In this document: in pieces, positions 3,082-63,066 of the stretch | How the letters are laid out: each line of letters begins with the position of its first letter | Numbering within the stretch: the stretch's first letter is position 1 | The notes under the pieces: generated by a model | What the model saw: the letters and a program-made list of their open reading frames with translations, nothing else | The model's database searches: none | Told to the model about the DNA's origin: nothing | Assembly (NCBI RefSeq): GCF_000711195.1 | Contig: NZ_JOMR01000001.1 | Location: forward strand, 1,054,001-1,118,000 | Source: Thiomicrospira pelophila DSM 1534 | GTDB taxonomy: Bacteria > Pseudomonadota > Gammaproteobacteria > Thiomicrospirales > Thiomicrospiraceae | Reading direction: 5' to 3' | DNA length: 64,000 nucleotides | Made by a program: the position numbers and the translations under genes

Positions 3082-3093
3082 ACCAGGCCTGGT
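3082..3093. repeat. Dispersed palindrome ACCAGGCCTGGT, copy 1
   Basis: Exact 12-mer, extended by flanking bases to a perfect 20-bp palindrome (3078-3097). It lies between the acnB stop and its terminator hairpin. Confidence 0.95.
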
Positions 3094-6354: not shown

Positions 6355-7524
6355 ATGAATTTACATGAGTATCAGGCTAAGCTCCTGTTTAAACAAGCTG
6401 GAATTGCAGTGCCGCAAGGTGTAGTGGTTGATGATCTGTCACAGGTGTTGGATGCGGTTAACCAGCTACCAAGTCAAGGCTGGGTGGTGAAAGCTCAAAT
6501 TCACGCTGGCGCACGTGGTAAAGCCGGTGGCGTTAAACTGGTTAAAACGGTCGCGGAAGCGGAGCAGGCTGCAAAAGCCTTGCTGGGTTCAAGCTTAGCA
6601 ACGATTCAAACGGCCGGTAAAGCTTTGCCGATTAACAAATTATTGATTGAGCAAACGCTCGATATTCAACAAGAACTCTATTTGAGCTTGGTGGTAGATC
6701 GAGTCGAAAAAGCCCATCGGTTTGTGGTTTCTGCGGCTGGCGGGATGGACATTGAAGAAGTCGCCGACACTCAGCCGGAAAAAATTATCTGCTTGGATGT
6801 GAATCCTTTATTGGGTGTAATGCCTTATCAAGCGCGAGAAATTGGGTTTGCACTAGGGTTAACCGGTGACGCCTTCAAGCAACTGGGTTCTATTTTAAAG
6901 CGTTTGTATCAGTTAGCACTGGATAAGGATTTTGCCCAGGTTGAAATTAATCCGTTGGTTTTAACCGCTGATAATCAGTTGATCGCGCTAGATGCGAAGG
7001 TTAATATCGATCCAAATGCGCTTTACCGACAACCAGGCCTGGTGGAATGGCGCGATATTAGTCAAGAAGATGAACGTGAAGCACAAGCTTCTCAGTTTCA
7101 GCTTAACTATATTGCATTAGATGGCAATATCGGCTGTATGGTAAATGGCGCCGGCTTGGCCATGGCGACCATGGACTTAATTCAACTCAATGGCGGTCAA
7201 CCGGCTAACTTTTTGGATGTAGGTGGCGGCACCACGCCTGAGCGTGTTTCCGAAGCCTTTAAGTTGATTTTGTCGTCTTCAGAAGTCAAAGCTATTTTAG
7301 TTAATATTTTTGGTGGCATCGTACGTTGTGATTTAATTGCTGAGGGCATTATTCAGGCCGTTAAAGAAGTTGGGCTATCTATTCCAGTGGTAGTGCGATT
7401 AGAAGGTACCAATGTAGAGTTAGGGCGTGAAAAATTAGCGCAAAGTGGTTTAAGTATTATTAGCGCCAATGACTTGGCGAGTGCCGCGCGTAAAGTGGTT
7501 GAAGTGGCAGGAGAAAGCGCATGA
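6355..7524 (+). CDS. sucC: Succinyl-CoA synthetase, beta subunit (ADP-forming)
   Basis: From the ATG at 6355 the product is 389 residues, one more than E. coli SucC, beginning [12 protein letters not shown]. The ATP-grasp domain is followed by the CoA-ligase domain with [13 protein letters not shown] and [15 protein letters not shown]. The subunit binds nucleotide and succinate in the TCA cycle. A frame extension upstream to 6313 lacks family homology. GGAG at 6339-6342 is the likely ribosome site. The stop overlaps the sucD ATG, so the two are translationally coupled. Confidence 0.96.
7032..7043. repeat. Dispersed palindrome ACCAGGCCTGGT, copy 2
   Basis: Exact 12-mer inside sucC, encoding Pro-Gly-Leu-Val between the ATP-grasp and ligase domains. 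Confidence 0.95.
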
Positions 7525-8411: not shown

Positions 8412-10043
8412 ATGTCGCACACGATCCAAATTGTCATGGCTCAAATTGATCCATTAGTTGGCGATATTTCTGGCAATGTGGAACGCATGGTTCGGGCGGC
8501 GAATCAGGCTAAACAAGACCATAATGCCGACCTGGTCGTGTTTCCCGAAATGAGTTTGTTAGGTTACCCGCCTGAAGATTTATTATTAAGGCATGGCTTG
8601 TATCCACAAATTCAGGAAGCGCTAAACTCGCTATGTGATCAAGTAAAAGATATCGCGATGGTGGTGGGTTATCCTATGATCGATGCGCTGGGTGAACGTT
8701 TTAATATGGCGGCTTGGATTAGCGAAGGCATGATCCAAGCCAGCTATATGAAACAGCATTTACCAAACTACAATGTATTTGATGAACAGCGTTATTTTGC
8801 CGCTGGAAGTAAACCCTGTGTGGTGGGTTTTAAAGGCGTGCAGTTTGGCTTAGTCATCTGTGAAGATATTTGGAAACCAGGCCCGGCTTTACAGACGGCT
8901 CAAGCCGGCGCTGAAGTCATTATTAACATTAATGCTTCTCCCTTCCACACTGAAAAATACCAAGACCGATTAGCCGTGGTGCGTCGTCGTATTGATGAAG
9001 TTAAACTGCCAGTTGTTTACGTCAACCAAGTGGGTGGTCAGGACGAACTGGTGTTTGATGGTGGTTCGTTTGCCATGTCGGCAGAAGGTTCAGTTCAAGT
9101 ACAAGCGCCGGAGTTTACGAATGCGTTAACCCTCGTGCAGTTGGTAAAAAACCAAGGTAAAGTTGAGGTTTTAGCCGGTTCGCAGGCACCGCTTTACCAA
9201 GGTGAAGCACGTATATATGAAGCGATCAAGTTGGGCATTCGTGACTATGTACACAAAAATGGATTTAAGGGTGTGTTATTGGGTTTATCCGGTGGAATTG
9301 ATTCTGCGTTAACCTTGGCCTTAGCGGTCGATGCATTAGGCGCGGATCAAGTTGAAGCTATCATGATGCCATTTCGCTATACGGCTCAAATTAGTATTGA
9401 AGATGCCCAAGCCCAAGCGGAAACCATGCGTGTCAAATATGACAATATGCCGATCGAGTCAATTTATAGTGGGTTTGAAGCGAGTTTGGCTGAACGATTT
9501 GAGGGTTATGAGGTGGATCTTACTGAAGAAAATTTGCAAGCACGTATTCGTGGAACCTTGTTAATGGCTTTGTCGAACAAGCTTGGCAAGTTAGTGTTGG
9601 CCACCAGTAACAAAAGCGAATCGGCGGTGGGATACAGTACGCTTTATGGTGATATGGTGGGGGGATTTTCACCGCTTAAAGATGTGCCTAAAACGTTGGT
9701 GTATCGTTTAGCGGAATATCGGAATCAATTAAACAAAGTCATTCCGAAACGTGTGATTACGCGTCCGCCATCGGCTGAGCTGAGACCAGATCAAGTCGAC
9801 CAGGATTCCTTGCCAGATTACGATGTGTTGGATGCGATTATTAAAGCCTATGTTGAACAAGATAATACACCGGCTGAAATCGTTGCATCGGAGATCGCGG
9901 AAGCGGAAGTCGTTTACCGAGTGGTAGGTCTAATCAATCGCAGTGAATACAAACGTCGTCAGGCGGCGCCGGGCGTACGAATTTCGTTGCGCGCTTTTGG
10001 ACGCGACCGACGTTACCCGATCACCAGCGGTTATAGCGAATAA
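8412..10043 (+). CDS. nadE: Glutamine-dependent NAD+ synthetase
   Basis: A two-domain protein of 543 residues. The N-terminal nitrilase-type glutaminase domain shows its triad as E46 (FPEMSLLGYPPEDLL), K114 (YMKQHLPNY) and C150 (LVICEDIWKPG). The C-terminal NAD synthase domain has the PP-loop SGGIDS at 293-298 and LATSNKSESAVGYSTLYGD. It amidates nicotinic acid adenine dinucleotide to NAD with glutamine. Its TAA stop touches a copy of the dispersed palindrome, and the next gene starts 10 bases on. Confidence 0.96.
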   Translation: MSHTIQIVMAQIDPLVGDISGNVERMVRAANQAKQDHNADLVVFPEMSLLGYPPEDLLLRHGLYPQIQEALNSLCDQVKDIAMVVGYPMIDALGERFNMAAWISEGMIQASYMKQHLPNYNVFDEQRYFAAGSKPCVVGFKGVQFGLVICEDIWKPGPALQTAQAGAEVIININASPFHTEKYQDRLAVVRRRIDEVKLPVVYVNQVGGQDELVFDGGSFAMSAEGSVQVQAPEFTNALTLVQLVKNQGKVEVLAGSQAPLYQGEARIYEAIKLGIRDYVHKNGFKGVLLGLSGGIDSALTLALAVDALGADQVEAIMMPFRYTAQISIEDAQAQAETMRVKYDNMPIESIYSGFEASLAERFEGYEVDLTEENLQARIRGTLLMALSNKLGKLVLATSNKSESAVGYSTLYGDMVGGFSPLKDVPKTLVYRLAEYRNQLNKVIPKRVITRPPSAELRPDQVDQDSLPDYDVLDAIIKAYVEQDNTPAEIVASEIAEAEVVYRVVGLINRSEYKRRQAAPGVRISLRAFGRDRRYPITSGYSE

Positions 10044-10054
10044 CCAGGCCTGGT
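10043..10054. repeat. Dispersed palindrome ACCAGGCCTGGT, copy 3 (stop/start junction)
   Basis: Exact 12-mer whose first base is the last base of the nadE stop and whose last two bases are the first two of the GTG start of the following gene. Confidence 0.95.
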
Positions 10055-12313: not shown

Positions 12314-12325
12314 ACCAGGCCTGGT
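12314..12325. repeat. Dispersed palindrome ACCAGGCCTGGT, copy 4
   Basis: Exact 12-mer in the 29-base gap between the permease stop and nagZ, ending two bases before the nagZ ribosome-binding site. Confidence 0.95.
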
Positions 12326-14502: not shown

Positions 14503-14533
14503 AGCTAACTTTTTCAATTGGGTTAGCTTTTTT
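14503..14533 (+). terminator. Terminator-like hairpin in the leader of the symporter gene
   Basis: AGCTAAC (14503-14509) pairs with GTTAGCT (14522-14528), followed by a run of six T. A TATAAT box at 14460-14465 would start a transcript of about 60 nt ending here, while the symporter ATG is at 14589. No coding region of either strand ends here, so it may be an attenuator or the end of a small RNA. Confidence 0.5.
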
Positions 14534-14588
14534 GCCAAAACGTGATGTCGTTACAGAGCGAGCAGGCCCAAATTATAAAGGAAAACGC

Positions 14589-16041
14589 ATGAGTCTTTTA
14601 AAACTTTCGACACAATCTTGGTCATCCCAGACCGTGTTTATTATGGCCGCCGTCGGCTCAGCGGTGGGTTTGGGTAATATTTGGAAGTTTCCTTATATTG
14701 CGGGTGACAATGGTGGCGGGGCGTTTGTACTTGTTTATTTGGCATGTATTTTAATTATCGGGTTACCGATTTTATTATCTGAAATCGCGTTGGGGCGCAC
14801 CGGCCAAGCAAATCCAGTGCAGGCGATGGCTAATGTGGCTCATGAAAGTGATGCATCACGTGTTTGGTCGGGTTTGGGTTTCAACGGCGTGTTGGCGGGG
14901 TTATTGATTTTGTCGTTTTACACGGTGATCGCCGGTATTGCGGTGGCGTATTTTGTCACCAGTGTGCAAGGGGTGTTTGTTGATATAACTAGCCAGCAAG
15001 CGCAAGACTTGTTTGAGGCAAAAGTCGCGAGTCCTTGGGAATTATTGTTTTGGCATAGCTTGGTAACGCTGTTTACGATTGTGATTGTTTCAAAAGGTAT
15101 CCGTAGCGGATTAGAGAAAGCGATCAATTTTATGATGCCAGGCTTATTGATTATATTGTTGGTGTTGTTAGCTTATGCGACCACTACCGGTTTTTTTGGA
15201 CAAAGCGTGGCGTTTATGTTTACGCCAGATTTCTCTAAGCTTAGTTGGGAAGCGGTATTAATCGCACTTGGGCATGCTTTTTTTACGCTCAGTATTGGGT
15301 TAGGCACCATGATGGCTTATGGCGCTTATGTAAATCAGAATATGTCGATTGTTAAAGCCAGTGTTTGGATTGTGGTAATGGATACACTGATTGCGCTTAT
15401 GGCAGGCCTGGTGATTTTTTCGGTCGTCTTTGCGAATGACTTGGCGCCAGGAGCTGGGCCTGGGTTGTTATTCCAAACCCTGCCCATTGCGTTTGGTCAG
15501 ATGGTAGGCGGCTGGTTTTTTGGTAGCTTGTTCTTTTTACTTGTTGTGATGGCGGCTTTAAGTTCGGCAATTTCATTGATCGAACCGGCTGTCAGCTGGT
15601 TTGAACAGAATTGGGGGATATTCGCGCCGAAAATCGGCCTGGATCTTGGGTGCAATTGCTTGGTTGATCGGCCTGGGTACGGTACTATCCTTTAATTACT
15701 GGGAAAACATTAAAGTATTAGGTGACCGTAACTTTTTTGCCTCGGTGGATTTTTTAACCTCCAGTATCATGTTACCGCTAGGTGGATTATTGATAGGCGT
15801 ATTTGTAGCTTGGACGATGCGTGCTGATTTAAAAACACAACAAATTGATTTGCAGGGTTGGGTGATGGCTTTATTTAACTTTAGTCTGCGTTATGTCACC
15901 CCTTTCGCTATTATTTTGGTGTTTGCCTATAATTTGAGTCAAACTTATATTGTGCCTATCATGCTAATCAGTATTGCGGTCTATGTGATTTACGTGGTGA
16001 GGTTGCTTAGAGTTAAGCGTTTAAAGGCAAGAGAGGTTTAG
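14589..16041 (+). pseudogene. Sodium-dependent (NSS/SNF family) transporter, interrupted by a +1 frameshift
   Basis: From the ATG at 14589 (AAAGGA upstream at 14578) the frame encodes an NSS transporter with the family start WSSQTVFIMAAVGSAVGLGNIWKFPY, which carries the Na+/substrate site in TM1. The frame is lost after AVSWFEQNWG and ends at 15695. The rest (YSRRKSAWILGAIAWLIGLG onward, about three helices) continues in the next frame to 16041. Removing one G from GGGGG at 15613-15617 restores a single 483-residue protein. Everything else looks intact, so this is a recent mutation, a phase-variable tract or a sequencing error. The likely substrate class is an amino acid, unproven. Confidence 0.85.
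15401..15412. repeat. Dispersed palindrome, degenerate copy GGCAGGCCTGGT
   Basis: Two mismatches to the consensus but the 8-bp core CAGGCCTG is intact; inside the symporter, encoding Ala-Gly-Leu-Val. May be coincidental. Confidence 0.45.
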
Positions 16042-19725: not shown

Positions 19726-22344
19726 TTAGGATTCAATATAGGTCATTAAGATTTGCGTGAGCTGTTGTTGGCGTTCAATGGGGATGGCTTCGTTGTGTGT
19801 GGTGCTTATGAGGAATGTATCTTCGGCTTTTTCGCCGACGGTATTAATTTTGGCATCGTGCATGCGGATTTCACAATCCCTAAAGGCTTGACCTACACGG
19901 GAAAGCAGGCCTGGTATGTCCTTTGTCACGATTGTGATTTCAGTGAGTTTTTTACTTAAATCTTGAAACTGCACTTGAGTGGGTGTTTTAAAGTGACGGA
20001 TTCTACGCTCTTTGGTGTGGTTTACCATTGGCTTAATAGGCGGGTGGTCGACTAGATTGTGTTCCAGTTTTAGTTTAATTTGATTGAGCAGTTCTGGATC
20101 TTCGATCGCGACTTGATCCCTGTCTAAAAAGTAGACTAAAACTAGAGTCATATTTTCGCGAGTTGAGTAGACCTTAGCTTCTACGATGTTTAAGTTTAAG
20201 TTATCAAGCGTTTGGGTGATTTGAGCGAATAAGAAGTCTCGGTTAGGCATATAAATCATTAGTTCAGACGCACCACGATGGGTTTTGCCGGTAATGGATA
20301 TAACCATCTCTTCGAGAGGGGTTTGATACAGCTGTTGCGTGATGCGACTGATTTCCAGCGGAGTTTGGCGATTAAAAAACTCAGTCTTTTTAAAACTGTT
20401 CCATAAGGCTTGGTAATCACTGGCATTAAGCGCATTTTTGGCTAGGATTTCGCGCGCTTTTTCTTGATGAAGTAAGGCTTTTTTGGTTTTGTCTTTTGGG
20501 ATTTCTAAGGCTTTATCGAGCGCATTGGAGGTTTCGTTAAACAGCTCTAAAAAAAGTGCGTTTTTCCAATCATTCCACACATCATCGGAAGTGGAGCAAA
20601 CATCGGCAACCGTCAGAAGGTACAAGTAATTCAAGCGATTTTGGTCGCCAACTAATCGAGAAAACTCCAAAATTACATTGGGGTCACTTAAATCCTTACG
20701 CTGTGCCACGCTTGAAAACTCAAGATGATGCCGAACTAGCCAAGCGACCAGTTTGGTATCGTTATCGGATAAGTTATGCGCTTTGCAAAATTGCAATGCG
20801 TCATCAGCCCCCAATACTTCATGAGCACCATTGCGACCTTTTGCAATGTCATGGAATAAACCGGCCAGAAACAGGATCTCGGGTTTGCAAATAGAGCGCG
20901 CAACCTGGTGGGCGGTAGGGAATTCAAACGCATATTCTTTGATGAAAAAACGTCTCAAATACCGAATCACCAAAATAGTATGTTCATCTACAGTGTAGGC
21001 GTGAAAAATATTGAACTGCATGAGGCCAGATATTTTGTGGAAGGCGGGTATGTAGGCTTCTAAAATGCCGTAGCTATGCATGCGTTTTAAGGAGGCGTTT
21101 ACGCCCTTGGGTTGGCGGAATATTTCAATAAATAAAGCTTTGTTAATGGGGTCGTTACGAAACGATTCATCAATTAAATGCAGGTTTTCTCGTAAAAGTC
21201 GAATCGTACGAGCACGGATGCCGGCGATGCTGGGATCATTTTCTACAATAATGAAAAGCTCAAGTAGGGCGCTTGGAAACTGTTGGAAAACATGTTCGGT
21301 TCGGATGTCGAGATATTGGTTAACGAGTTGGAAGCGTTGGTTGATTTTGGTGATTTTTTGAGATTGCTGGGTGAATATTTCTTCATAAAAATGTTGTAGC
21401 AAAATCTCATTGAGTTTGACCACAGCTCGCAAGTTTCGGTAGTAACTATTCATAAACTGCTCAACGGCTAGCTTTTCGCTGGTGTCTTGATAGTTAAATG
21501 TTTCCGCAACTTGCTGTTGGTTATCGAATAACAAGCGGTCTTCGCGACGGTTTTTTAGACGGTGCAGTATGAAGCGTACTCGGCTTAAGAACTTATAGGC
21601 TGCATCTAACTCCCGGTATTCATCCGGTGTTATAAATTGTTTTTGAACCAGTTGGTGAATTGAGGTGGCATTAAAGTGCCGCTTGGCGACCCAGAAAATG
21701 GTTTGTATGTCACGTAAGCCCCCAGGGCTTTCTTTAATGTTGGGCTCAAGTTGATAAACGGTGTCGTGGAAACGCTTGTGGCGTTGCTCTTGTTCACTAA
21801 GCTTGGCTTCAAAGAAAGCTTGGCTGGGCCAAAAACTGTCAGACTTCCAAATGGTTTGCAGCGCTTCAAACAGTTCATAGTTACCGGTAATCCAGCGTGC
21901 TTCCAATAAATTGGTCGCGGTGGTGATGTCTTCTAAGCCGGCTTGATGGCATTCTTCGACCGTTCGAATAGCATGACCTACCTCAAATCCCATGTCCCAT
22001 AGCAGGGTAATAAAGTGACTGATTTTGTCAGAGTCGCTGAAAGAGGTTTTACATAGAATTAATAAATCGATATCCGAATGAGGGTGAAGTTCGCCACGAC
22101 CATAGCCACCCACTGCGACTAAAGCAAAGTTTTCAGCATCGAAACTATGATGCCAAATCTTCTTTAGAATTTGATCAATAAACACCGAACGCTCTTTAAT
22201 CAATTCAGAAACCGCCGTTCCTTGGTCAAACTGATTGAACTGATGGGCACTAAAGCGCTGAAGCATATCGCGTCCAACCTTAGCCGCAATGTCAGGTTGT
22301 TTAAGTGCGTTGATAAAGTTGGGTAGGTCGGATTGGGTGTGCAT
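19726..22344 (-). CDS. glnD: Bifunctional uridylyltransferase/uridylyl-removing enzyme (PII regulation)
   Basis: The 872-residue sensor has all four expected parts: nucleotidyltransferase with VGGYGRGELHPHSDIDLLIL (the catalytic G-x-D-x-D type motif), the linker, the HD phosphohydrolase with FLAGLFHDIAKGR, and two C-terminal ACT domains (VISITGKTHRGASELMIY and ITIVTKDIPGLLSRVGQAF) that sense glutamine. It uridylylates and deuridylylates PII to control nitrogen metabolism. It follows map after 17 bases, an arrangement shared with E. coli. Confidence 0.96.
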   Translation of the reverse strand: MHTQSDLPNFINALKQPDIAAKVGRDMLQRFSAHQFNQFDQGTAVSELIKERSVFIDQILKKIWHHSFDAENFALVAVGGYGRGELHPHSDIDLLILCKTSFSDSDKISHFITLLWDMGFEVGHAIRTVEECHQAGLEDITTATNLLEARWITGNYELFEALQTIWKSDSFWPSQAFFEAKLSEQEQRHKRFHDTVYQLEPNIKESPGGLRDIQTIFWVAKRHFNATSIHQLVQKQFITPDEYRELDAAYKFLSRVRFILHRLKNRREDRLLFDNQQQVAETFNYQDTSEKLAVEQFMNSYYRNLRAVVKLNEILLQHFYEEIFTQQSQKITKINQRFQLVNQYLDIRTEHVFQQFPSALLELFIIVENDPSIAGIRARTIRLLRENLHLIDESFRNDPINKALFIEIFRQPKGVNASLKRMHSYGILEAYIPAFHKISGLMQFNIFHAYTVDEHTILVIRYLRRFFIKEYAFEFPTAHQVARSICKPEILFLAGLFHDIAKGRNGAHEVLGADDALQFCKAHNLSDNDTKLVAWLVRHHLEFSSVAQRKDLSDPNVILEFSRLVGDQNRLNYLYLLTVADVCSTSDDVWNDWKNALFLELFNETSNALDKALEIPKDKTKKALLHQEKAREILAKNALNASDYQALWNSFKKTEFFNRQTPLEISRITQQLYQTPLEEMVISITGKTHRGASELMIYMPNRDFLFAQITQTLDNLNLNIVEAKVYSTRENMTLVLVYFLDRDQVAIEDPELLNQIKLKLEHNLVDHPPIKPMVNHTKERRIRHFKTPTQVQFQDLSKKLTEITIVTKDIPGLLSRVGQAFRDCEIRMHDAKINTVGEKAEDTFLISTTHNEAIPIERQQQLTQILMTYIES
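19904..19915. repeat. Dispersed palindrome, variant AGCAGGCCTGGT
   Basis: One mismatch (position 2, C to G); inside glnD, encoding Ile-Pro-Gly-Leu-Leu of the last ACT domain. That residue pattern is itself common in ACT domains. Confidence 0.6.
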
Positions 22345-24229: not shown

Positions 24230-24241
24230 ACCAGGCCTGGT
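24230..24241. repeat. Dispersed palindrome ACCAGGCCTGGT, copy 5
   Basis: Exact 12-mer, first of the pair between rpsB and tsf. Confidence 0.95.
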
Positions 24242-27509: not shown

Positions 27510-28315
27510 TGTTAAAGCAAAGACTGATCACCGCCTTGGTGTTAATTGTGGTTTCTTTATGGGCCTTATTTGGTGCTGAGCCACTTGTTTGGCAATCGGC
27601 GGTTACTTTGATCGCCATGATAGGTGCTTGGGAATGGACGCAGTTTATGCGCCTAGAAAATCGAATAATAAAATTAGCTTTCAGTGCTGTGACGGCTGGA
27701 TTAATTGTTCTGGGTCTAGTATTTGATCTGCAAAATTGGATTGTTTACTTGGCGATGCTTCAGTTACTGATTGTTGTCTATATGGTAACAAGATTTCAAT
27801 TGAGTGAAGGTCAAGTGGGTCTGAGTCATCGCTTGTTTGTGGGCTTAGTTGGATTATTGTTTCTGGTCAGTTTTGCATGGTCACTGATATGGCTAAGAGA
27901 CGCTTATTCGGCTTGGGTTGTTTTATTTAGTATGGCGATGATTTGGGTGATGGACTCAGGCGCTTATTTTGCAGGTCGGCGTTTTGGTCGTCATAAACTC
28001 GCACCCCATGTCAGTCCAGGCAAAACCTGGGAAGGTGTCTTGGGCGGTGTGGTTCTAGTTGGTTTGGTTTCAGTGTTGGTTTGGTTTGAATGGGCGCAAG
28101 CTTTTTACACGCCAGGCCTGGTTGTGTTTGTAGTATTAAGTAGTTTGATTGCTGCATTATCGGTTTATGGTGATTTGTTTGAAAGCCTGCTAAAACGCCA
28201 AGTTAACATAAAAGACAGTGGCAAAATCTTGCCCGGTCATGGCGGGGTACTGGATCGTATTGATAGTTTATTATTGGCATTGCCATTGTTTTGGGTGTTT
28301 TGGTCGTTTACGTGA
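27509..28315 (+). CDS. cdsA: Phosphatidate cytidylyltransferase
   Basis: A 268-residue polytopic membrane protein with several hydrophobic helices and the CdsA signature around DSGAYFAGRRFGRHKLAPHVSPGKTWEG, ending with GHGGVLDRIDSLL. It makes CDP-diacylglycerol for phospholipid synthesis in the inner membrane. It is coupled to uppS by a 1-base overlap, and rseP follows 12 bases on. Confidence 0.96.
   Translation: MLKQRLITALVLIVVSLWALFGAEPLVWQSAVTLIAMIGAWEWTQFMRLENRIIKLAFSAVTAGLIVLGLVFDLQNWIVYLAMLQLLIVVYMVTRFQLSEGQVGLSHRLFVGLVGLLFLVSFAWSLIWLRDAYSAWVVLFSMAMIWVMDSGAYFAGRRFGRHKLAPHVSPGKTWEGVLGGVVLVGLVSVLVWFEWAQAFYTPGLVVFVVLSSLIAALSVYGDLFESLLKRQVNIKDSGKILPGHGGVLDRIDSLLLALPLFWVFWSFT
28111..28122. 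repeat. Dispersed palindrome, variant GCCAGGCCTGGT
   Basis: One mismatch (position 1); inside cdsA, encoding Pro-Gly-Leu-Val in a periplasmic or membrane loop. Confidence 0.75.
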
Positions 28316-28327
28316 GTTTAAACTGAT

Positions 28328-29722
28328 ATGACGATTTTATGGGCGGTGCTGGGCTTTAGTTTACTAATTGGCGTATTGGTGACGATACATGAATGGGGAC
28401 ATTTTGCTGTCGCACGCTTTTTTAACGTCAAAGTATTAACCTTTTCAATCGGATTTGGGCGTGCCATATATAAAAAACAGCGCGGTGAAACTCAATACCA
28501 AATCGGCCTGATTCCACTCGGTGGTTATGTTAAGTTTTTAGATGAGAGAGTTGACTCGGTTGCCGAACATGAAAAGGCGCGGGCTTTTAATCAGCAATCG
28601 GTTTATAAGCGTTTTGCGATCGTTTTGGCCGGCCCCATTATTAACTTAATCTTTGCTTGGTTGCTGTTTGCAGTGATTAATATGATCGGTGTCAGCAATT
28701 TAAAACCGTTATTTGAAACACCAACTAACAATTCACCTTTGGCTTCAGCGATGACAGATTTAGATGGTGACCACCAGGCCTGGTGGTTGGTTGAAGTGGA
28801 CCATCAACCTGTCTCCAGTTGGCCACGCGTGCAACAAGCTGTTTTGCAAGGCTTGGTGCATGATAAAGCCAGCGTAACTTTATCATTGCAACCTTTTGGT
28901 ACTAAAGCCGATGAACAGGTCAACAATCAGCTGGTTGAACTCCCTTTGTCTGGTTTGGATCTTAATAATGTCAAATCGAACTGGTTAGGTGAGTTGGGGT
29001 TTAGGCCAAAACCTCCCAATTTAGCGCCTTTGATTGATGAGGTGTTAGACGGTTCGCCGGCTTTTAAAGCGGGCTTACAGTCAGGGGATCGTATTACTGC
29101 GGTTAATGGCCAAGTCATAAATGATTGGCAAGCTTTAGTCCGCTTTGTGCGCTTGCATCCAAATGAATCACATTTGATCTCCTATCAACGAAACCAAGCT
29201 CAGTATGATGTGATGGTTAGGTTTGAAGGTGTTGAGCAGTCTGGCGAACAAATAGGGCGTTTAGGTGCATCAGTTGACCAAACCCAGCTACAGCAGAGTG
29301 AATATTATGCGATTGAACGTTATGGTGTATTAGGCGCTTTTGAACAAGGCTTGCATCAGTCAGTTAACTTATTAAACATGACCTTGGTGATGTTCAAAAA
29401 AATGCTGTTTGGCGAAGTTGGACTCGCTCATTTGTCGGGGCCTTTAAGCATTGCCGATTTTTCAGGACAAGCCTTGCAGTCTGGTTTTATTAGTTTTTTA
29501 AGCTTGATGGCGCTGTTGAGTTTAAGTTTAGGGGTTTTGAATTTATTGCCTATTCCTATGTTGGATGGTGGGCACTTAATGTATTACTTGGTTGAAATGG
29601 TACGCGGTCGCCCAGTAAGTGAGCGCGTTGAAGAAATTGGTTATCGTATTGGATTGACATTAATCGTCGGTCTAACCATTTTGGCTTTTACGAATGACTT
29701 GGTCAGAATTACAAATGGATAG
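28328..29722 (+). CDS. rseP: Site-2 intramembrane zinc metalloprotease RseP
   Basis: The 464-residue protein has the zinc motif HEWGH (residues 21-25) in the first membrane helix, two PDZ domains (around ALASAMT... and LGELGFRPKPPNLAPLIDEVLDGSPAFKAGLQ), and the third ligand region LPIPMLDGGHLMYY near the C-terminus. It performs the second cut of anti-sigma factor RseA in the envelope stress response. The first PDZ contains an HQAWW insert encoded by an exact copy of the dispersed palindrome. dxr, often found near this position, is absent. Confidence 0.96.
   Translation: MTILWAVLGFSLLIGVLVTIHEWGHFAVARFFNVKVLTFSIGFGRAIYKKQRGETQYQIGLIPLGGYVKFLDERVDSVAEHEKARAFNQQSVYKRFAIVLAGPIINLIFAWLLFAVINMIGVSNLKPLFETPTNNSPLASAMTDLDGDHQAWWLVEVDHQPVSSWPRVQQAVLQGLVHDKASVTLSLQPFGTKADEQVNNQLVELPLSGLDLNNVKSNWLGELGFRPKPPNLAPLIDEVLDGSPAFKAGLQSGDRITAVNGQVINDWQALVRFVRLHPNESHLISYQRNQAQYDVMVRFEGVEQSGEQIGRLGASVDQTQLQQSEYYAIERYGVLGAFEQGLHQSVNLLNMTLVMFKKMLFGEVGLAHLSGPLSIADFSGQALQSGFISFLSLMALLSLSLGVLNLLPIPMLDGGHLMYYLVEMVRGRPVSERVEEIGYRIGLTLIVGLTILAFTNDLVRITNG
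28773..28784. repeat. Dispersed palindrome ACCAGGCCTGGT, copy 7
   Basis: Exact 12-mer, extended to an 18-bp palindrome (28770-28787); inside rseP, encoding His-Gln-Ala-Trp-Trp. Confidence 0.95.
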
Positions 29723-36153: not shown

Positions 36154-36774
36154 ATGCAGCAGACAGGATTATTTGACACGCCTCTAACCACCAGGCCTGG
36201 CGCTATTCGAGTTGGTGTAGACGAGGTCGGACGCGGCCCGTTAGTGGGTGAAGTGGTTGCGGCCGCGGTTATTTTGCCGGCAGACTGTCGCTTGCAATTA
36301 AAAGATTCTAAAAAAATGACGCATGCGCAACGCATCGAGATGGCTGATCGCATTCGTGAGGTGGCCGTTGATTATGCCGTGATTGGCGTTTCAGCCAAAA
36401 CGATTGATGAAATCAATATATTGCAAGCCACCATGCTCGCTATGCGTCAAAGTGTCGAAGCTTTAAATCAGCCGTTTGATGAGGTATTAGTGGATGGCAA
36501 TCGCTGCCCAGATTTACCTTGCGCGTGTCGCGCGATTGTTAAAGGGGATGCATTAATTGCTGAAATCAGTGCCGCTTCGATTTTAGCCAAAGTCTATCGA
36601 GATGAACAAATGATGCAGCTACATGCGCAATATCCAGATTATGGGTTTGATCGTCACAAAGGCTATCCCACAGTTGAACATTTAGCCGCAATTGAGCGTT
36701 ATGGTTTAATTGACGGCTATAGAAGCAGTTTTAAACCAGTTAGACAATGGCTTGAAAAAGATCAAATTAGTTAG
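36154..36774 (+). CDS. rnhB: Ribonuclease HII
   Basis: The 206-residue enzyme has the signature RVGVDEVGRGPLVGEVVAAAV with acidic residues D23 and E24, DGNRCPDL with the third acidic residue, and AEISAASILAKVYRDEQM. It cuts RNA in RNA-DNA hybrids. Its ATG follows the lpxB stop with no gap. A near-exact palindrome copy lies in the unconserved N-terminus and encodes Thr-Arg-Pro-Gly. dnaE and accA do not follow, unlike E. coli; accA lies 9 kb away. Confidence 0.96.
   Translation: MQQTGLFDTPLTTRPGAIRVGVDEVGRGPLVGEVVAAAVILPADCRLQLKDSKKMTHAQRIEMADRIREVAVDYAVIGVSAKTIDEINILQATMLAMRQSVEALNQPFDEVLVDGNRCPDLPCACRAIVKGDALIAEISAASILAKVYRDEQMMQLHAQYPDYGFDRHKGYPTVEHLAAIERYGLIDGYRSSFKPVRQWLEKDQIS
36190..36201. 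repeat. Dispersed palindrome, variant ACCAGGCCTGGC
   Basis: One mismatch (equivalent to the position-1 variant read on the other strand); in the N-terminus of rnhB, the only copy read as Thr-Arg-Pro-Gly. Confidence 0.75.
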
Positions 36775-37864: not shown

Positions 37865-37876
37865 ACCAGGCCTGGT
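37865..37876. repeat. Dispersed palindrome ACCAGGCCTGGT, copy 8
   Basis: Exact 12-mer, extended to 16 bp (37863-37878), between the cheV stop and the shared terminator. Confidence 0.95.
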
Positions 37877-44539: not shown

Positions 44540-44551
44540 AGCAGGCCTGGT
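44540..44551. repeat. Dispersed palindrome, variant AGCAGGCCTGGT
   Basis: One mismatch (position 2); left arm of the ycaO/DUF481 hairpin. Confidence 0.75.
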
Positions 44552-44574
44552 GGTTGAGTTAATCACCAGGCCTG
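44542..44574. terminator. Hairpin formed by two palindrome copies between convergent genes
   Basis: CAGGCCTGGTG (44542-44552) pairs with CACCAGGCCTG (44564-44574), an 11-bp stem over an 11-base loop. GTTGTTTT follows on the plus strand and CTTTTAC on the minus strand. Likely a bidirectional terminator for ycaO and the DUF481 gene. Confidence 0.72.
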
Positions 44575-44576
44575 GT
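44565..44576. repeat. Dispersed palindrome ACCAGGCCTGGT, copy 9
   Basis: Exact 12-mer; right arm of the ycaO/DUF481 hairpin. Confidence 0.95.
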
Positions 44577-46475: not shown

Positions 46476-47789
46476 ATGCAATCTGCCGAACCTGTTATTC
46501 AAGCCATCGAACGCTTTTACCGATCGCTTCAAGCCTCAAAAGTCTGGGTTGCCTACAGTGGTGGGTTAGATTCACATGTTTTATTGCAGAGTCTGGTCGA
46601 ACTTAAACCCGCTCATGTTGAGCTGGCGGCGATTCATGTGCATCACGGCTTACAGGCCGAGGCGGATAGTTGGGTCATACATTGTCATTCGGTTTGTAAT
46701 GCGCTTCAAGTCCCGCTTCAGGTTGAATATGTTGAAGTGGATAAAAGCCAAAATATCGAATCCGCGGCACGTCAAGCTCGTTATCAAGCGTTTGAAAAAT
46801 GGGTGGAAGAAAACGAGGTGATTTGCACAGGCCATCACCAACGTGATCAAGTGGAAACACTGTTATTAAATTTAATGCGTGGTGCAGGCCTAGAGGGTTT
46901 AAGTGCCATGCCTAAACGACGTGTTTTAGCTAATCAAGCCGATTTAACTAATCACCAGGCCTGGTTGGTTCGGCCCTTGTTAAGTACTAGTTATGAAGCG
47001 GTTCAGAATTACGCCAAGCAATATCATTTGCAATGGGTAGAAGATCCGACCAATCAGCATGTTGAGTATCGGCGCAATTTTATTCGCCATCAGTTATTGC
47101 CAATACTCGACCAGGCCTGGTCGAATCCGCAAGCTAAATTAGCCCAAGCCTGTGCTCATCAAGCGGAAGCGGCTGAGCTGCTGCATGAGCTGGCGCAAAA
47201 TGATTTAGCTGAGATTGAGCATGATACGACTCGATTAAACTGGCATCAGCTGCAGAAGCTTAATTGGTCGCGTCAAAAAAATGCTCTACGTTATTGGTTT
47301 AAACGCTTTCATCAGGTATCCATTGACCAGGCGAGCTTAGATTGGCTGCGCTCTGATGGGTTTAACACTAACCCTGATGCTCAGCCCAAGCGAATGTTGA
47401 AGCAGGCTGAAATTCGTCGTTATCAGAATTGGATTTATCTACTGGATGAATCGACTATCAAGTCACCATTTAGTGTTTTGGTTCAACAAGATTCGGATTG
47501 GCTGAAGCAGGGCATTAAGAAAGTGCCCACGCTCGGTAATGGCATAGCCCAACATTGGTTGGAACCTGGTAATGAAGTTCGGATACGCTCTTTGCGTGAA
47601 GACGATCAAGTGAACCGGGACTCTCTAAAAAAGTGGTTTCAAGCTCAAAAAATCCCACCTTGGCAGCGCCAGAATTGGCCAGTGGTTGAAATTAATTCTC
47701 AACTTGCGGTTGTTATTGGTTATCGTACCTTGGATGGCTTTCAGGCAAAATCTGATGAAAAAGCGCTAAAGTTAGTGGGTTTAAATTGA
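46476..47789 (+). CDS. tilS: tRNA(Ile)-lysidine synthase
   Basis: The 437-residue enzyme has the PP-loop VAYSGGLDSHVLL (SGGLDS 28-33), HHQRDQVETLLLNLMRGAGLEGLSAM and RRNFIRHQLLP, followed by the helical and C-terminal substrate-binding domains. It makes lysidine at position 34 of tRNA-Ile(CAU). Two exact palindrome copies lie 145 bases apart and encode NHQAWLV and DQAWS, inserted in spacer regions next to conserved motifs. Confidence 0.95.
   Translation: MQSAEPVIQAIERFYRSLQASKVWVAYSGGLDSHVLLQSLVELKPAHVELAAIHVHHGLQAEADSWVIHCHSVCNALQVPLQVEYVEVDKSQNIESAARQARYQAFEKWVEENEVICTGHHQRDQVETLLLNLMRGAGLEGLSAMPKRRVLANQADLTNHQAWLVRPLLSTSYEAVQNYAKQYHLQWVEDPTNQHVEYRRNFIRHQLLPILDQAWSNPQAKLAQACAHQAEAAELLHELAQNDLAEIEHDTTRLNWHQLQKLNWSRQKNALRYWFKRFHQVSIDQASLDWLRSDGFNTNPDAQPKRMLKQAEIRRYQNWIYLLDESTIKSPFSVLVQQDSDWLKQGIKKVPTLGNGIAQHWLEPGNEVRIRSLREDDQVNRDSLKKWFQAQKIPPWQRQNWPVVEINSQLAVVIGYRTLDGFQAKSDEKALKLVGLN
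46954..46965. repeat. Dispersed palindrome ACCAGGCCTGGT, copy 10
   Basis: Exact 12-mer inside tilS, encoding His-Gln-Ala-Trp-Leu. Confidence 0.95.
47110..47121. repeat. Dispersed palindrome ACCAGGCCTGGT, copy 11
   Basis: Exact 12-mer, extended to an 18-bp palindrome (47107-47124); inside tilS, encoding Asp-Gln-Ala-Trp-Ser. Confidence 0.95.
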
Positions 47790-47902: not shown

Positions 47903-49525
47903 ATGACTAAATTTATATTCGTAACCGGTGGTGTTGTGTCTTCCTTGGGGAAAGGCATCGCTGCGGCGTCTCTGGGTGCCCTGCTAGAAGCAAGGGGCAT
48001 GAACGTCAGCATGTTGAAGATGGACCCCTATATCAATGTGGATCCAGGCACCATGAGCCCACTCCAACACGGTGAAGTATTTGTCACTGATGATGGTGCT
48101 GAAACGGATCTAGACTTGGGGCATTATGAGCGTTTTGTGCAGAGGCCTTGTGGAAAGCGTAATAGCTTTTCAACCGGTCAGGTTTATGAAACAGTGATTC
48201 GTCGTGAACGTCGTGGCGACTATTTAGGCGGAACGGTACAGGTGATTCCGCATATTACCGATGAAATTAAAGCCCGCATCAAACTAGCTTCCGATGGCTT
48301 CGATGTGACGATTGTCGAAGTCGGTGGCACGGTGGGGGATATCGAATCCTTACCTTTCCTCGAAGCCATCCGTCAAATGGGTGTCGAAGTTGGTCGTGAT
48401 CGTGCGATGTTTATGCATTTAACCTTATTGCCCTATATTGCGGTAGCGGGTGAAGTCAAAACTAAGCCTACTCAACATTCGGTTAAAGAGTTACGTTCTA
48501 TCGGGATTCAGCCAGACGTATTGATTTGTCGTTCCGAAATTCCATTAGGTGAAAGTGATAAACGCAAAATTGCGTTATTTACCAATGTGGAAGAAAAAGC
48601 TGTTATTAGTTCACTGGATGCCAAGTCTATCTACCAAGTGCCGCGTATGTTGCATGAGCAAGGCTTGGATGAGTTGGTGGTTAAAAAACTACAAATGACC
48701 GGTCTTAAACCGATTGATTTATCAGATTGGGATCAGGTGGTTGATGCACAGCTCAATGCCCAGGATGAAGTTAATATTGCAATGGTTGGCAAATATGTGG
48801 ATCTTACCGAAGCTTATAAGTCGGTGATTGAAGCCTTATTGCACGCCGGTATTCACACACGTACACGCGTTAAAATTCATTATATTGACTCAGAAGAGCT
48901 GGAAAAAGCCGGTATTGATCAGCTCAAAAGCATGCACGCCATTTTAGTACCGGGTGGCTTTGGTGAGCGCGGAGTTGAAGGCAAAATTCTAGCCATTCAA
49001 CATGCGCGTGAATCCAAAAAACCTTATTTAGGGATTTGTCTAGGTATGCAAATGGCGGTGGTTGAATATGCACGACATGTCGCCGGTTTAGAAAAAGCTC
49101 ACAGCACAGAACTGAACCCTAATACACCGCATCCAGTCGTAGCTTTGATTACCGAATGGACGGATGAGAAGGGCGATAAAGTCGAGCGCAACGAAACCTC
49201 AGACTTAGGTGGTACCATGCGATTAGGTGGTCAAAACTGCGTGGTTAAAGCCGGCACGAAACTCGCCAGTATTTATGGTAAAGATGTAATTCGTGAACGT
49301 CATCGTCATCGTTATGAAATGAATGACGGGTATATTAGTCGTTTAGAACAAGCAGGCCTGGTGTTTTCAGCACATTCGCAAGATGGGCATTTAGTTGAGT
49401 CCATTGAGATTCCAGATCATCCATGGTTTGTGGCTTGTCAGTTCCACCCTGAATTTACATCCACGCCGCGCAATGGTCATCCGCTGTTTAGCGCCTTTGT
49501 GCAAGCGGCTAAAACAAACAAATAG
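47903..49525 (+). CDS. pyrG: CTP synthase
   Basis: The 540-residue enzyme starts [25 protein letters not shown] (synthetase P-loop) and has the class I glutamine amidotransferase domain with [16 protein letters not shown] (nucleophile C379) and [11 protein letters not shown]. It aminates UTP to CTP. kdsA and eno follow, the pyrG-kdsA-eno-ftsB order known from many proteobacteria. Near the C-terminus it contains a one-mismatch palindrome encoding Ala-Gly-Leu-Val. Confidence 0.98.
49351..49362. repeat. Dispersed palindrome, variant AGCAGGCCTGGT
   Basis: One mismatch (position 2); inside pyrG, encoding Gln-Ala-Gly-Leu-Val, a conserved CTP synthase segment, so this copy may reflect the protein sequence. 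Confidence 0.6.
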
Positions 49526-52124: not shown

Positions 52125-52136
52125 ACCAGGCCTGGT
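52125..52136. repeat. Dispersed palindrome ACCAGGCCTGGT, copy 12
   Basis: Exact 12-mer, 13 bases after the ftsB stop, between convergent ftsB and the Smr gene. No T run follows. Confidence 0.95.
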
Positions 52137-55549: not shown

Positions 55550-55921
55550 TTAATTAAGAATTAAGCCCATGACCACTTCTCGATCTTCGGTAGTTAATAC
55601 GTTATACGTTCGACAGGCTGAAGCGTTGTTCATTACTTCTAAGCTGACACCTTGTTGTGCACATAAACCAAAAATTTCGGCTGAAGGAAATTGCTGCTTT
55701 TCACCCGTACCCAGAATCAGCACTTCGGGAGACAAATCTAAAAGTTGTTGCAAAGTTGCTGATGTTAAGTCGTCTAATTTTTTGACTGGCCAAGCTGGGT
55801 TTAAACTTTGTTGAGTAATAATACAACTGGTCTGATAATCTTGATTATTGATGGTTACCAGGCCTGGTGCATAGTGGTTAATCATGTTGATTTTAGGGTC
55901 GCGATGTTCCGTAAATTTCAT
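55550..55921 (-). CDS. Mth938-like (DUF498/Xcc1710-type) domain protein
   Basis: The 123-residue single-domain protein shows SPEVLILGTGEKQQFPS and ASACRTYNVLTTEDREVVMGLIL, the Mth938/NDUFAF3-like signature. Bacterial members are uncharacterised; the mitochondrial relative helps complex I assembly. The N-terminal APGLVTI segment is encoded over an exact palindrome copy. Confidence 0.85.
   Translation of the reverse strand: MKFTEHRDPKINMINHYAPGLVTINNQDYQTSCIITQQSLNPAWPVKKLDDLTSATLQQLLDLSPEVLILGTGEKQQFPSAEIFGLCAQQGVSLEVMNNASACRTYNVLTTEDREVVMGLILN
55857..55868. repeat. Dispersed palindrome ACCAGGCCTGGT, copy 13
   Basis: Exact 12-mer inside the Mth938-like gene, read on the minus strand as Ala-Pro-Gly-Leu-Val. 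Confidence 0.95.
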
Positions 55922-58613: not shown

Positions 58614-59630
58614 ATGTCCAACCAGGCGGTGACCTTATGGATTCCTGGTTTATTAGATCATTTTCAACCTGACCACCAGGCCTGCTGGTCAGGTTCCGCT
58701 TTTCAAACGCTGCTTAATAAAGCCGATGTTTATCCGCTCAAACCCTACAGTTTTATCGAACGTGCTAGTCAACTGTTCCACCAACCACAAACACTTAGTG
58801 CGGCCGCTACTATGGCCTCTGTGGAGTTGACTGATTTCGATCCGCAGGCTTTTTGGTTAAAAGTAGATCCAGTTCAGATGATTCCAGATCGCGATACCTT
58901 GGTCTTGGTTTCGGCTCAAGATCTAGATATTACGCGAGCTGAATCCCAAGCGCTGTTAGATGCGTTTAACCAACATTTTGCTGAAGATGGCGTTAAGCTT
59001 GAGTGGGGTGATAACGACTCTTGGTATATGCGTTTGCCACAAGCCGTAGATATTCAAACCACCGATCTAGCGCAAGCCAATTATCGTAATTTACACGGCC
59101 TTTATCCAAGCGGACATGCTGGGTCTTATTGGCGAACTTTGATGAATGAAGTTCAAATGTTGTTTTATCAGCATCCCGTTAATCTTGCACGGCGTGAACT
59201 TGGCCAAGCTGAAATTAATAGTGTTTGGGTGTGGGGCGAAGGTCAAATTAAGCCAGATAGCATCCAAAGGCGACCACAGGCTAAAATTTGGGGAAACCAT
59301 GCGTACCTAAAAGGTTTAGCGAATTTAACCCAAGCGCAGATTCAGCAAACACCAGCTAGTCACCAGGCCTGGTGCTTAGATAACGCACAACAAGAAGCGC
59401 ATTTTATTACGCTTGATCTAAAGCACCAGCTGGCTTCGAGTGAAGAGACTTCAGATGGTGACTTATTGTTAAGTCTAGAGAAAGATTGGATGCAGGGCTT
59501 GTTGGATGATCTGAAACATGGCCGTATTCATTCTTTATTTATTGATTTAGGCGGCGCGAAAGGCTTTTTAATTGAACCTTCACATCTACGTCGTTTTTGG
59601 CGGCGCTGGCGAAATCCACTCAAATCTTAG
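58614..59630 (+). CDS. RpfE-like (phosphoglycerate mutase-related) protein
   Basis: I place the start at ATG 58614 because GAGGGA lies about 8 bases upstream; this gives 338 residues. The sequence has the pattern of proteobacterial RpfE/cofactor-independent phosphoglycerate mutase-like proteins: WIPGLLDH, NEVQMLFYQHPVN, INSVWVWGEGQ and a C-terminal FWRRWR. Catalytic residues of true iPGM are not evident, and the function is unknown. Two palindrome copies lie within it (DHQACW, SHQAWC). recJ nearby on the opposite strand fits a pairing seen elsewhere. Confidence 0.72.
   Translation: MSNQAVTLWIPGLLDHFQPDHQACWSGSAFQTLLNKADVYPLKPYSFIERASQLFHQPQTLSAAATMASVELTDFDPQAFWLKVDPVQMIPDRDTLVLVSAQDLDITRAESQALLDAFNQHFAEDGVKLEWGDNDSWYMRLPQAVDIQTTDLAQANYRNLHGLYPSGHAGSYWRTLMNEVQMLFYQHPVNLARRELGQAEINSVWVWGEGQIKPDSIQRRPQAKIWGNHAYLKGLANLTQAQIQQTPASHQAWCLDNAQQEAHFITLDLKHQLASSEETSDGDLLLSLEKDWMQGLLDDLKHGRIHSLFIDLGGAKGFLIEPSHLRRFWRRWRNPLKS
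58675..58686. repeat. Dispersed palindrome, variant ACCAGGCCTGCT
   Basis: One mismatch (the position-2 variant on the other strand); inside the RpfE-like gene, encoding His-Gln-Ala-Cys-Trp. Confidence 0.75.
59362..59373. repeat. Dispersed palindrome ACCAGGCCTGGT, copy 14
   Basis: Exact 12-mer extended to 14 bp; inside the RpfE-like gene, encoding His-Gln-Ala-Trp-Cys. Confidence 0.95.
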
Positions 59631-61302: not shown

Positions 61303-63066
61303 TTAAACTTTAAAGGCAAATTGTAAACGCAGTTGTAATGAGGTGCGCCCCATATATTGGTTCAAAGTAGGTTGGTAAACACACTCTATCCAATCATTTT
61401 GTTTGTAAGGCAGGGGCTGTTGGCTGTGATCCAGCGCGCCAAAATAAATGGCTTTAACTGGCGAGCGGCTATTTTCCGGTATTAAACGCAAACTCAAATG
61501 GGTTTGGGTTTGGCCAATCTGTTTGATATCCAAGATTTTAAAACGGCCATTAAATTGCGGCTGTGGCCATTCTCGGCCATAGGGTTCGAGTCGTTCCAGT
61601 TCGTCCATTAACTGTGGCGTAAATAGGTGGCCTGCAAGCTCACCGTCGGTTTCAATTAAGGGCGTAGGCGTGGTGTCGCCAAATTGTTGCTGTGCGGCTT
61701 CTTCTAATCCCTGTTGAAAGATGGCAAAGTCGGCGAGATTTATCTGACAGCCCGCCGCACCTTTATGGCCGCCTTTGGCTAAGAATAAGCCAGGATGTTG
61801 CTCCTCGATCCAATTAAACGCCCGAATCAAATCAAACTCCGGCACAATGCCGCGTCCGCTACCCGCCAAGGTACCATCGTTTAAATCGGTCATGGCTACA
61901 CAAGGTAAACCAAACTTTTCACCTACACGCGTGGCCACAATACCTTGAATACCAGCGTTACCTTCTAAGGAAATCGCCAAACTGAAGCGTTTATCATGAT
62001 ACAAGTCATGCGCTTTTTGCATGGCTTGTTGCATTAACCCTTCTTGTTGCTGACGACGTTCTTGGTTATCGGCTTCGAGTTGCTGCAGATGCAACCAGGC
62101 CTGGTCGAGGCTGTCGGCATTTAAAAAATGAAAGGCTTGGGTCACGTCATTGACTCGGCTGGCCGCATTAATACGTGAAGCAACTTGGAAGGCTAAAAAC
62201 TCGGCATTATAAGGACGGTCTGAGTTATTGTTTAACTTACGAAAGGCTTGCCAGGCTGGGTGTTCGAATTGATTTATTTGTTGTAAACCCGCCAATACAA
62301 TGGCCCGATTATTTGGGCTTTTTAAACTCACACTGTCGGCGATAGTTCCCAATGCCACGTGCAAACTGAGGTCTTTTAAAGAGGGGGTATCCCTAGGTAA
62401 CATGCCACGTTTTATGAGCTCGTTACGAACTTGTGTCATGACCAAGAAAATGACAAAACAACCTGCGATGGTTTTGTCGTATTCGCAACCGCTTTGCTGT
62501 GGATTGACAGTGCAAGTAGCACTCGCGGGTGCCCCTTCTGCTGGGATACTATGGTGGTCGGTGACGCATACTTTGATACCGGCTTGTGCCAAACGTTCGA
62601 TACGTGGTTGATCACTCGAACCTTGATCGGCTGAAATGACGAGCTCTACGTTTTGCTCTAAGCCTAAAATCTCATCACACATTTCATCAGTAATGCCGTA
62701 ACCGTTTTTGCGTTCACCGATCAAATGAACAACGCGCGCTGGATTGACATCAAAGTGATCAATCAACGCACGATGGGCGACCCAAGCCGAGGTTACACCA
62801 TCTGTATCGTAATCGGTCGCTAATACAATTAGACCATCTGACTCAATCGCATTGGCAATCAGCTGGGCGGCTTGTTGTGAGTTTTTGAGCTGGTTGGGGT
62901 GTTGTAAGTGCTTGAGCTGGGGCGAAATAATGGCCTCTATTTGCTCGGGCGATTCTAAGCGCTGGGCAACTAAGCGCGCTTGCAGATCCGTTAAGCCCAA
63001 CGCTTTGGCGGCTTCATGGCTGCTCGGGTTTAGCGGGCGTTGTGTAATGCGAGGCGGCTTAAGCAT
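61303..63066 (-). CDS. recJ: Single-stranded-DNA-specific exonuclease RecJ
   Basis: The 587-residue DHH-family nuclease shows TDYDTDGVTSAWVAHRAL (motif I), ISADQGSSDQPRIE and VTDHHSIPAEG (the DHH motif), and the DHHA1 domain with AKGGHKGAAGCQI. It degrades single strands 5' to 3' in recombination and mismatch repair. One exact palindrome copy encodes DQAWLHLQ in a helical linker. The gene converges on thrC. Confidence 0.95.
   Translation of the reverse strand: MLKPPRITQRPLNPSSHEAAKALGLTDLQARLVAQRLESPEQIEAIISPQLKHLQHPNQLKNSQQAAQLIANAIESDGLIVLATDYDTDGVTSAWVAHRALIDHFDVNPARVVHLIGERKNGYGITDEMCDEILGLEQNVELVISADQGSSDQPRIERLAQAGIKVCVTDHHSIPAEGAPASATCTVNPQQSGCEYDKTIAGCFVIFLVMTQVRNELIKRGMLPRDTPSLKDLSLHVALGTIADSVSLKSPNNRAIVLAGLQQINQFEHPAWQAFRKLNNNSDRPYNAEFLAFQVASRINAASRVNDVTQAFHFLNADSLDQAWLHLQQLEADNQERRQQQEGLMQQAMQKAHDLYHDKRFSLAISLEGNAGIQGIVATRVGEKFGLPCVAMTDLNDGTLAGSGRGIVPEFDLIRAFNWIEEQHPGLFLAKGGHKGAAGCQINLADFAIFQQGLEEAAQQQFGDTTPTPLIETDGELAGHLFTPQLMDELERLEPYGREWPQPQFNGRFKILDIKQIGQTQTHLSLRLIPENSRSPVKAIYFGALDHSQQPLPYKQNDWIECVYQPTLNQYMGRTSLQLRLQFAFKV
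62094..62105. repeat. Dispersed palindrome ACCAGGCCTGGT, copy 15
   Basis: Exact 12-mer inside recJ, read on the minus strand as Asp-Gln-Ala-Trp-Leu. Confidence 0.95.

Follow-up and report, generated by a model that had tools for sequence, protein, structure and literature searches.

The perfect 12-base palindrome ACCAGGCCTGGT occurs in 613 exact copies in the whole genome of the sulfur-oxidising bacterium Thiomicrospira pelophila DSM 1534 (G000; a single contig of 2,108,215 bases, with Thiomicrospira sp. Kmv17 as its nearest named relative at 97% PyrG identity), compared to 0 copies of the reversed control; the ratio of observed to expected copies is about 8370 (first-order Markov expectation). 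It apparently acts as a DNA signal that forces the amino acids of the frame in which it is read, and perhaps as a 'self' mark for uptake. In our analysis the palindrome would be a family-specific dyad signature, for which an uptake or self-recognition sequence in natural transformation appears the likeliest role, albeit one to which we give slightly less than an even chance. The analysis demonstrates how abundant the palindrome is, how its core and flanks are built, that the DNA controls the residues, the on/off and dialect pattern, and the lack of C5 and PF01555-type DNA methyltransferases; we infer that a protein dimer reads the palindrome and that DNA uptake is the process concerned.

Abundance, form and placement of the palindrome

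The window, by which we mean the whole 64-kb stretch of DNA that was analysed, contains 15 exact copies of ACCAGGCCTGGT and 8 extra copies of its core, CAGGCCTG; with up to two mismatches to ACCAGGCCTGGT allowed, there are 25 matches vs 1.3 +/- 1.1 in shuffles. Among the one-mismatch copies, 42 of 52 deviate at the four outer positions, and since the mismatches mostly fall there, the core is under constraint. Intergenic copies carry a longer and looser dyad (AASCACCAGGCCTGGTGSTT) around the 12-mer, and the flank consensus is AASC...GSTT. Cores are spaced at about one per 2.4 kb, roughly evenly and slightly more regularly than random. The sampled density is also even around the chromosome, except for two stretches that, from reading their protein sequences, we take to be RuBisCO/carboxysome genes (L114) and ribosomal-protein genes (L130): the former has 0 sites, the latter one core copy.

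Intergenic sequence is enriched in sites (39 of 108 sites in 14% of the sequence), convergent gaps more so than divergent gaps, and many of the intergenic sites are situated 5-60 nt after stop codons. Some of them probably double as terminators. An RNA hairpin or terminator as the main role was considered and rejected, since the arms of intergenic copies covary only modestly and those of coding copies weakly. In the window, the copies between genes or at gene junctions are the following:

3082-3093: exact palindrome in a convergent gap, within an extended inverted repeat that lies close to an A run and resembles a terminator
10043-10054: exact palindrome at a gene junction
12314-12325: exact palindrome, intergenic, directly after a stop codon
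24230-24256: two exact palindromes, intergenic, 15 bp start to start
37865-37876: exact palindrome, intergenic
44540-44576: variant and exact copy in a convergent gap, at a distance of 25 bp
52125-52136: exact palindrome between convergent genes

Seven core pairs lie 15-28 bp apart in the G000 sample, including those at 24230/24245 and 44540/44565 of the window; this exceeds random spacing, under which about 3 are expected below 50 bp.

Coding copies and the residues they impose

Re-read in frame, the exact coding copies in the window encode what the preliminary description had listed: (H/D)QAW in five cases (rseP, tilS twice, the 58599-59630 gene, and recJ) and PGLV in two (sucC and a DUF498/Mth938-like gene). 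Both tilS copies of ACCAGGCCTGGT are indeed exact (46954-46965 and 47110-47121), 156 bp from start to start with 144 bases between them. For the 58599-59630 gene, described earlier as RpfE-like, the profile search gave only weak matches, all to phosphoglycerate-mutase-like models. Near-exact copies in the window are mostly read in the frames PGLV/AGLV/PGLL. The coding features are:

46476-47789, plus strand: tilS (tRNA lysidine synthetase; TIGR02432, E 5e-53), host of two palindromes
46954-46965: exact palindrome, tilS site 1, QAW frame (HQAWL); no TilS row lacking the DNA site has QAW
47110-47121: exact palindrome, tilS site 2, QAW frame (DQAWS); Trp common without the site, Gln-Ala not
28773-28784: exact palindrome, rseP, QAW frame (HQAWW)
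59362-59373: exact palindrome, 58599-59630 gene (weak phosphoglycerate-mutase-like matches), HQAWC
58675-58686: one-mismatch copy ACCAGGCCTGCT, 58599-59630 gene, HQACW
62094-62105: exact palindrome, recJ (minus-strand gene), DQAWL
7032-7043: exact palindrome, sucC, PGLV frame (QPGLV)
55857-55868: exact palindrome, DUF498/Mth938-like gene, APGLV
49351-49362: variant AGCAGGCCTGGT, pyrG (CTP synthase, 540 aa), QAGLV; one synonymous base from the site-free L003
5120-5131: variant GCCAGGCCTGGT, 120-aa ORF, VPGLV
28111-28122: variant GCCAGGCCTGGT, phosphatidate cytidylyltransferase gene, TPGLV
15401-15412: variant GGCAGGCCTGGT, CDS 14532-15695, MAGLV
19904-19915: variant AGCAGGCCTGGT, CDS 19726-22344 (minus strand), IPGLL
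36190-36201: variant ACCAGGCCTGGC, CDS 36154-36774, TRPG frame

A bias towards the QAW frame had been read from these copies, but it is gone once frames are tallied, with a simple ORF caller, over 464 kb made up of the window and twenty further stretches of 20 kb. This sample holds 114 exact copies, of which 69 lie in genes, 39 are intergenic and 6 overlap gene ends; the 69 coding copies are read as PGLV (35), QAW (24) and TRPG (10), for which a codon-based null gives 53%, 42% and 5%, respectively. The ratio of QAW to PGLV (24:35) agrees with codon usage (0.42:0.53), and QAW is therefore not favoured. The 5 of 7 QAW copies in the window are only marginally unusual given the 464-kb share (p = 0.054); the preference seen there comes from the small number of copies. 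Neither is there avoidance of Thr-Arg-Pro-Gly, one explanation offered for the bias: TRPG exceeds the codon-usage null, with 10 copies observed vs about 3.5 expected (p = 0.002). In the same sample, the core encodes 38 of 44 QAW, 39 of 42 PGLV and 11 of 13 TRPG peptides, about 90% overall.

In an alignment of 52 TilS rows, in which some genomes are represented twice, 10 rows have QAW at site 1 (residue 161) and 13 have it at site 2 (residue 213), each of them with CAGGCCTG in the DNA. Site-free homologues that keep QAW were looked for and none was seen at either site among the 52 rows, in line with the earlier proposal that the repeat, not the protein, sets the residues. The sites also occupy tolerant spots, as had been suspected: site 1 lies in a length-variable loop, and at site 2 only the Trp is common, being frequent in relatives without the site while Gln-Ala is not. 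This frequent Trp provides a TGG foothold for the palindrome. In pyrG, the site is a single synonymous base away from the site-free L003, and near-identical residues are kept. For the tilS match of G007 (L093) one in-frame TAA was reported. The residues follow the DNA element, whose three frames yield the QAW, PGLV and TRPG peptides as by-products.

Comparison with relatives at 64-84% DNA identity indicates how sites have been gained. Those at about 44040, 44129 and 49353 of the window have arisen by in-place substitution, while those at 46956 and 43083 are located in length-variable loops with small in-frame indels; a fixed-length inserted unit was not found at the sites when set against site-free relatives. 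Gain by insertion or conversion had been suggested: insertion is not borne out, as there is no such unit and some sites, e.g. in pyrG, are substitution-only, while conversion, in the form of biased recombination, may still play a part. In a 13.6-kb comparison, 6 of 6 core sites are kept in L001, although 8-mers are only 27% identical (p = 0.0004). On our reading, point substitutions or changes inside tolerant loops create the sites, and selection or drive acting on the DNA maintains them.

Two other accounts of the copies have to be weighed at this point. Selection at the protein level, by which QAW and PGLV would be useful motifs on helices or surfaces and would have given rise to the DNA repeat, could call on the Trp common at tilS site 2 without the site and on the pyrG residues that are near-identical without it; we nevertheless find it barely credible, for a single DNA string yields three unrelated peptides, 39 of the 114 exact copies lie between genes, QAW is never seen in those of the 52 TilS rows that lack the DNA site, and TRPG exceeds expectation in spite of needing an AGG codon. 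It is also highly improbable that we are dealing with a mobile or terminator element, be it tiny REP-like palindromes inserted as units or terminators spread by selection. Intergenic copies do group 5-60 nt past stop codons and between convergent genes, some of them with longer arms that covary in part, but 69 of the 114 exact copies are within genes, coding copies show little arm covariation, no constant insertion unit appears against site-free relatives, and several sites are substitution-only. REP/REPIN sequences, too, are short palindromes that number in the hundreds, some of them close to the ends of genes; they are, however, mainly extragenic and inserted as a unit (PMC3116915), whereas our palindrome is mostly genic and has no insertion unit.

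Distribution and dialects across the family

All nine Thiomicrospira genomes (9/9) carry the 12-mer, in 181-688 copies; outside the family, 365 gammaproteobacteria genomes have 0-5 copies. The CAGGCCTG core is bimodal among 63 family genomes, with 236-1173 copies in 32 and 0-74 in the other 31. On a pyrG tree of named relatives this amounts to about 5 motif gains or losses, with motif status judged from local density over about 13 kb. Flanks are species-specific, e.g. A(C/G)CAGGCCTG(G/C)T, ACAGGCCTGT and TTACCAGGCCTGGTAA. Genome G029 has 0 copies of the 12-mer and 1025 of ACCGGCCGGT, a word that reaches at most 15 copies elsewhere in the family: an apparent dialect switch, judging from these counts, with ACCGGCCGGT replacing the main palindrome. 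The flanks of ACCGGCCGGT in G029 are TTA...TAA, followed by A-rich sequence (e.g. L198, L199, L247-L250). A Chi-like role, CCTGGTGG resembling Chi, was rejected: other dialects are without CCTGGTGG while the core stays.

Very high-copy non-palindromic words, e.g. TTAGCTGCCT and GCGGCTTAGA, were encountered in G016 (L147-L150) and G020 (L206-L207); from their sequence, words of this type are probably CRISPR repeats. Viral contigs mostly show scattered single matches and no general enrichment of the palindrome. One predicted prophage-like contig of an isolate, L352 (IMGVR_UViG_2788499856_000001), has six exact copies in 1.6 kb (479-2041), far above host density.

Candidate roles and comparison with known systems

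Methylation-biased repair has been proposed for HIP1 (GCGATCGC) of cyanobacteria (Elhai 2015, PMC4390886). A similar origin, in which mismatch repair is biased by a methyltransferase acting on the internal GGCC, CCWGG or AGGCCT and palindromes arise as a result, seems to us very improbable here. The 12-mer does contain GGCC and two CCWGG sites, and it shares with HIP1 and the alternate HIPs (PMC4390886) the GC-rich palindromic form, the extreme overrepresentation, with copy numbers from the hundreds to upwards of a thousand, both genic and intergenic, the near absence from some relatives, and the alternate palindrome that takes its place in another species. It comes, however, without the C5 or PF01555 methyltransferase that HIPs and alternates usually have (PMC4390886): a C5 methyltransferase (PF00145) was found in 0 of 9 Thiomicrospira genomes, nor was it found in G029 with the alternate palindrome, and no PF01555 match over the cut-off was obtained in G000, G001, G002, G004, G011, G020, G023, G024, G029 and G033. 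Cytosine methylation, Dcm and very-short-patch repair were accordingly discarded, PF00145 being missing throughout the genus, and so were the PF01555 N4/N6 methyltransferases, which are missing from many carriers and whose weak match in G000 is a tRNA uracil methyltransferase. As no cytosine DNA methyltransferase was found in the genome, the HIP1 methylation model does not fit, and cytosine methylation is very unlikely to be the cause. Our palindrome also differs from the 8-base HIP1 in its 12 bases with 18-20-base dyad flanks, which are species-specific, and in being another sequence in another phylum. The cause of HIP1 itself is still debated.

We favour DNA uptake, by analogy with DUS (PMC3630211): the palindrome has dialects, a core/flank structure and a history of switching on and off, and ComEA and ComEC are present. 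The palindrome would be a dyad-symmetric protein site with the invariant core CAGGCCTG, ACCAGGCCTGGT as its main form, and looser flanks; a putative DNA receptor would read it, differences in receptor specificity between species would give the dialects, and lineages losing the reader would lose the sites. ComEA is found in 31 of the 32 motif-rich genomes (the exception is an 82%-complete assembly) vs 23 of the 31 motif-poor ones, an association with p = 0.013 when uncorrected for relatedness, and ComEC in nearly all genomes searched, including the carriers searched. Uptake is weakened as an explanation by two results: neither the ComP_DUS pilin (PF16732) nor PilQ (TIGR02515) was found over the cut-off anywhere in the family, and the competence genes ComEA and ComEC are also present in motif-poor relatives (G030, G032, G034). 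The pili of G000 consist of an MSHA-like type IV cluster (L259, 10574-18160) and a Tad/Flp cluster (L127, 7974-17542), with no PilQ-type secretin over the cut-off; MSHA-like and Tad pili are not known to take up DNA in this group. The literature searched contained no report of natural transformation of these bacteria, and nothing on the 12-mer or on uptake sequences in Thiomicrospira.

The uptake sequences of other bacteria offer the closest parallels to such a role. In DUS and USS, as here, imposed amino acids are a by-product. The DUS of Neisseriaceae come in species dialects with terminator-associated intergenic copies (PMC3630211), and our palindrome resembles both these and the USS of Pasteurellaceae (PMC3630211, PMC1939737): it is an overrepresented word in the range of 10-12 bases, its core and flanks are graded, its dialect differs between species, some of its intergenic copies probably serve as terminator hairpins as well, and its carriers have ComEC and ComEA, although many non-carriers do too. 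The DUS and USS described so far are non-palindromic and orientable (PMC3630211, PMC1939737); ours is a perfect palindrome in a family with no ComP_DUS pilin and no PilQ over the cut-off. If the palindrome does serve uptake or self-recognition, with dialects that can switch and with PilQ and a ComP-type receptor missing from the family, an undescribed DNA receptor for dyad-symmetric sites could be at work, one that has been lost or re-specified several times within this family; we put this forward tentatively.

A close rival to uptake remains: an abundant dimeric protein of the cytoplasm, engaged in nucleoid organisation, segregation or repair, may bind the palindrome, with dialects following changes in this protein. 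We consider this possible without being probable. The dyad symmetry with graded flanks, the roughly even spread at about one core per 2.4 kb, and the lack of the Neisseria-type receptor and PilQ in the family are all in its favour. The known sites of this kind (parS, matS, SlmA, Noc) number tens and are clustered by macrodomain, however, while the sampled density here is even; no candidate protein was found; and the motif was lost several times in relatives, which indicates that it is dispensable.

The palindrome is of the genome-signature kind. In outline it works like HIP1 or DUS, but it is a member of neither class, since neither a cytosine methyltransferase to match it nor the ComP/PilQ machinery was found. 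We know of very few lineages with genomes saturated by one short word. The Thiomicrospira lineage is one of them: its word is long and palindromic, has dialects and is on or off within genera, and a cytosine methyltransferase was not found; given these traits, a reader protein could be sought by gene content in the 32 rich vs the 31 poor genomes. It also presents a case of DNA-level pressure dictating protein sequence, most of the sampled QAW, PGLV and TRPG peptides coming from the site.
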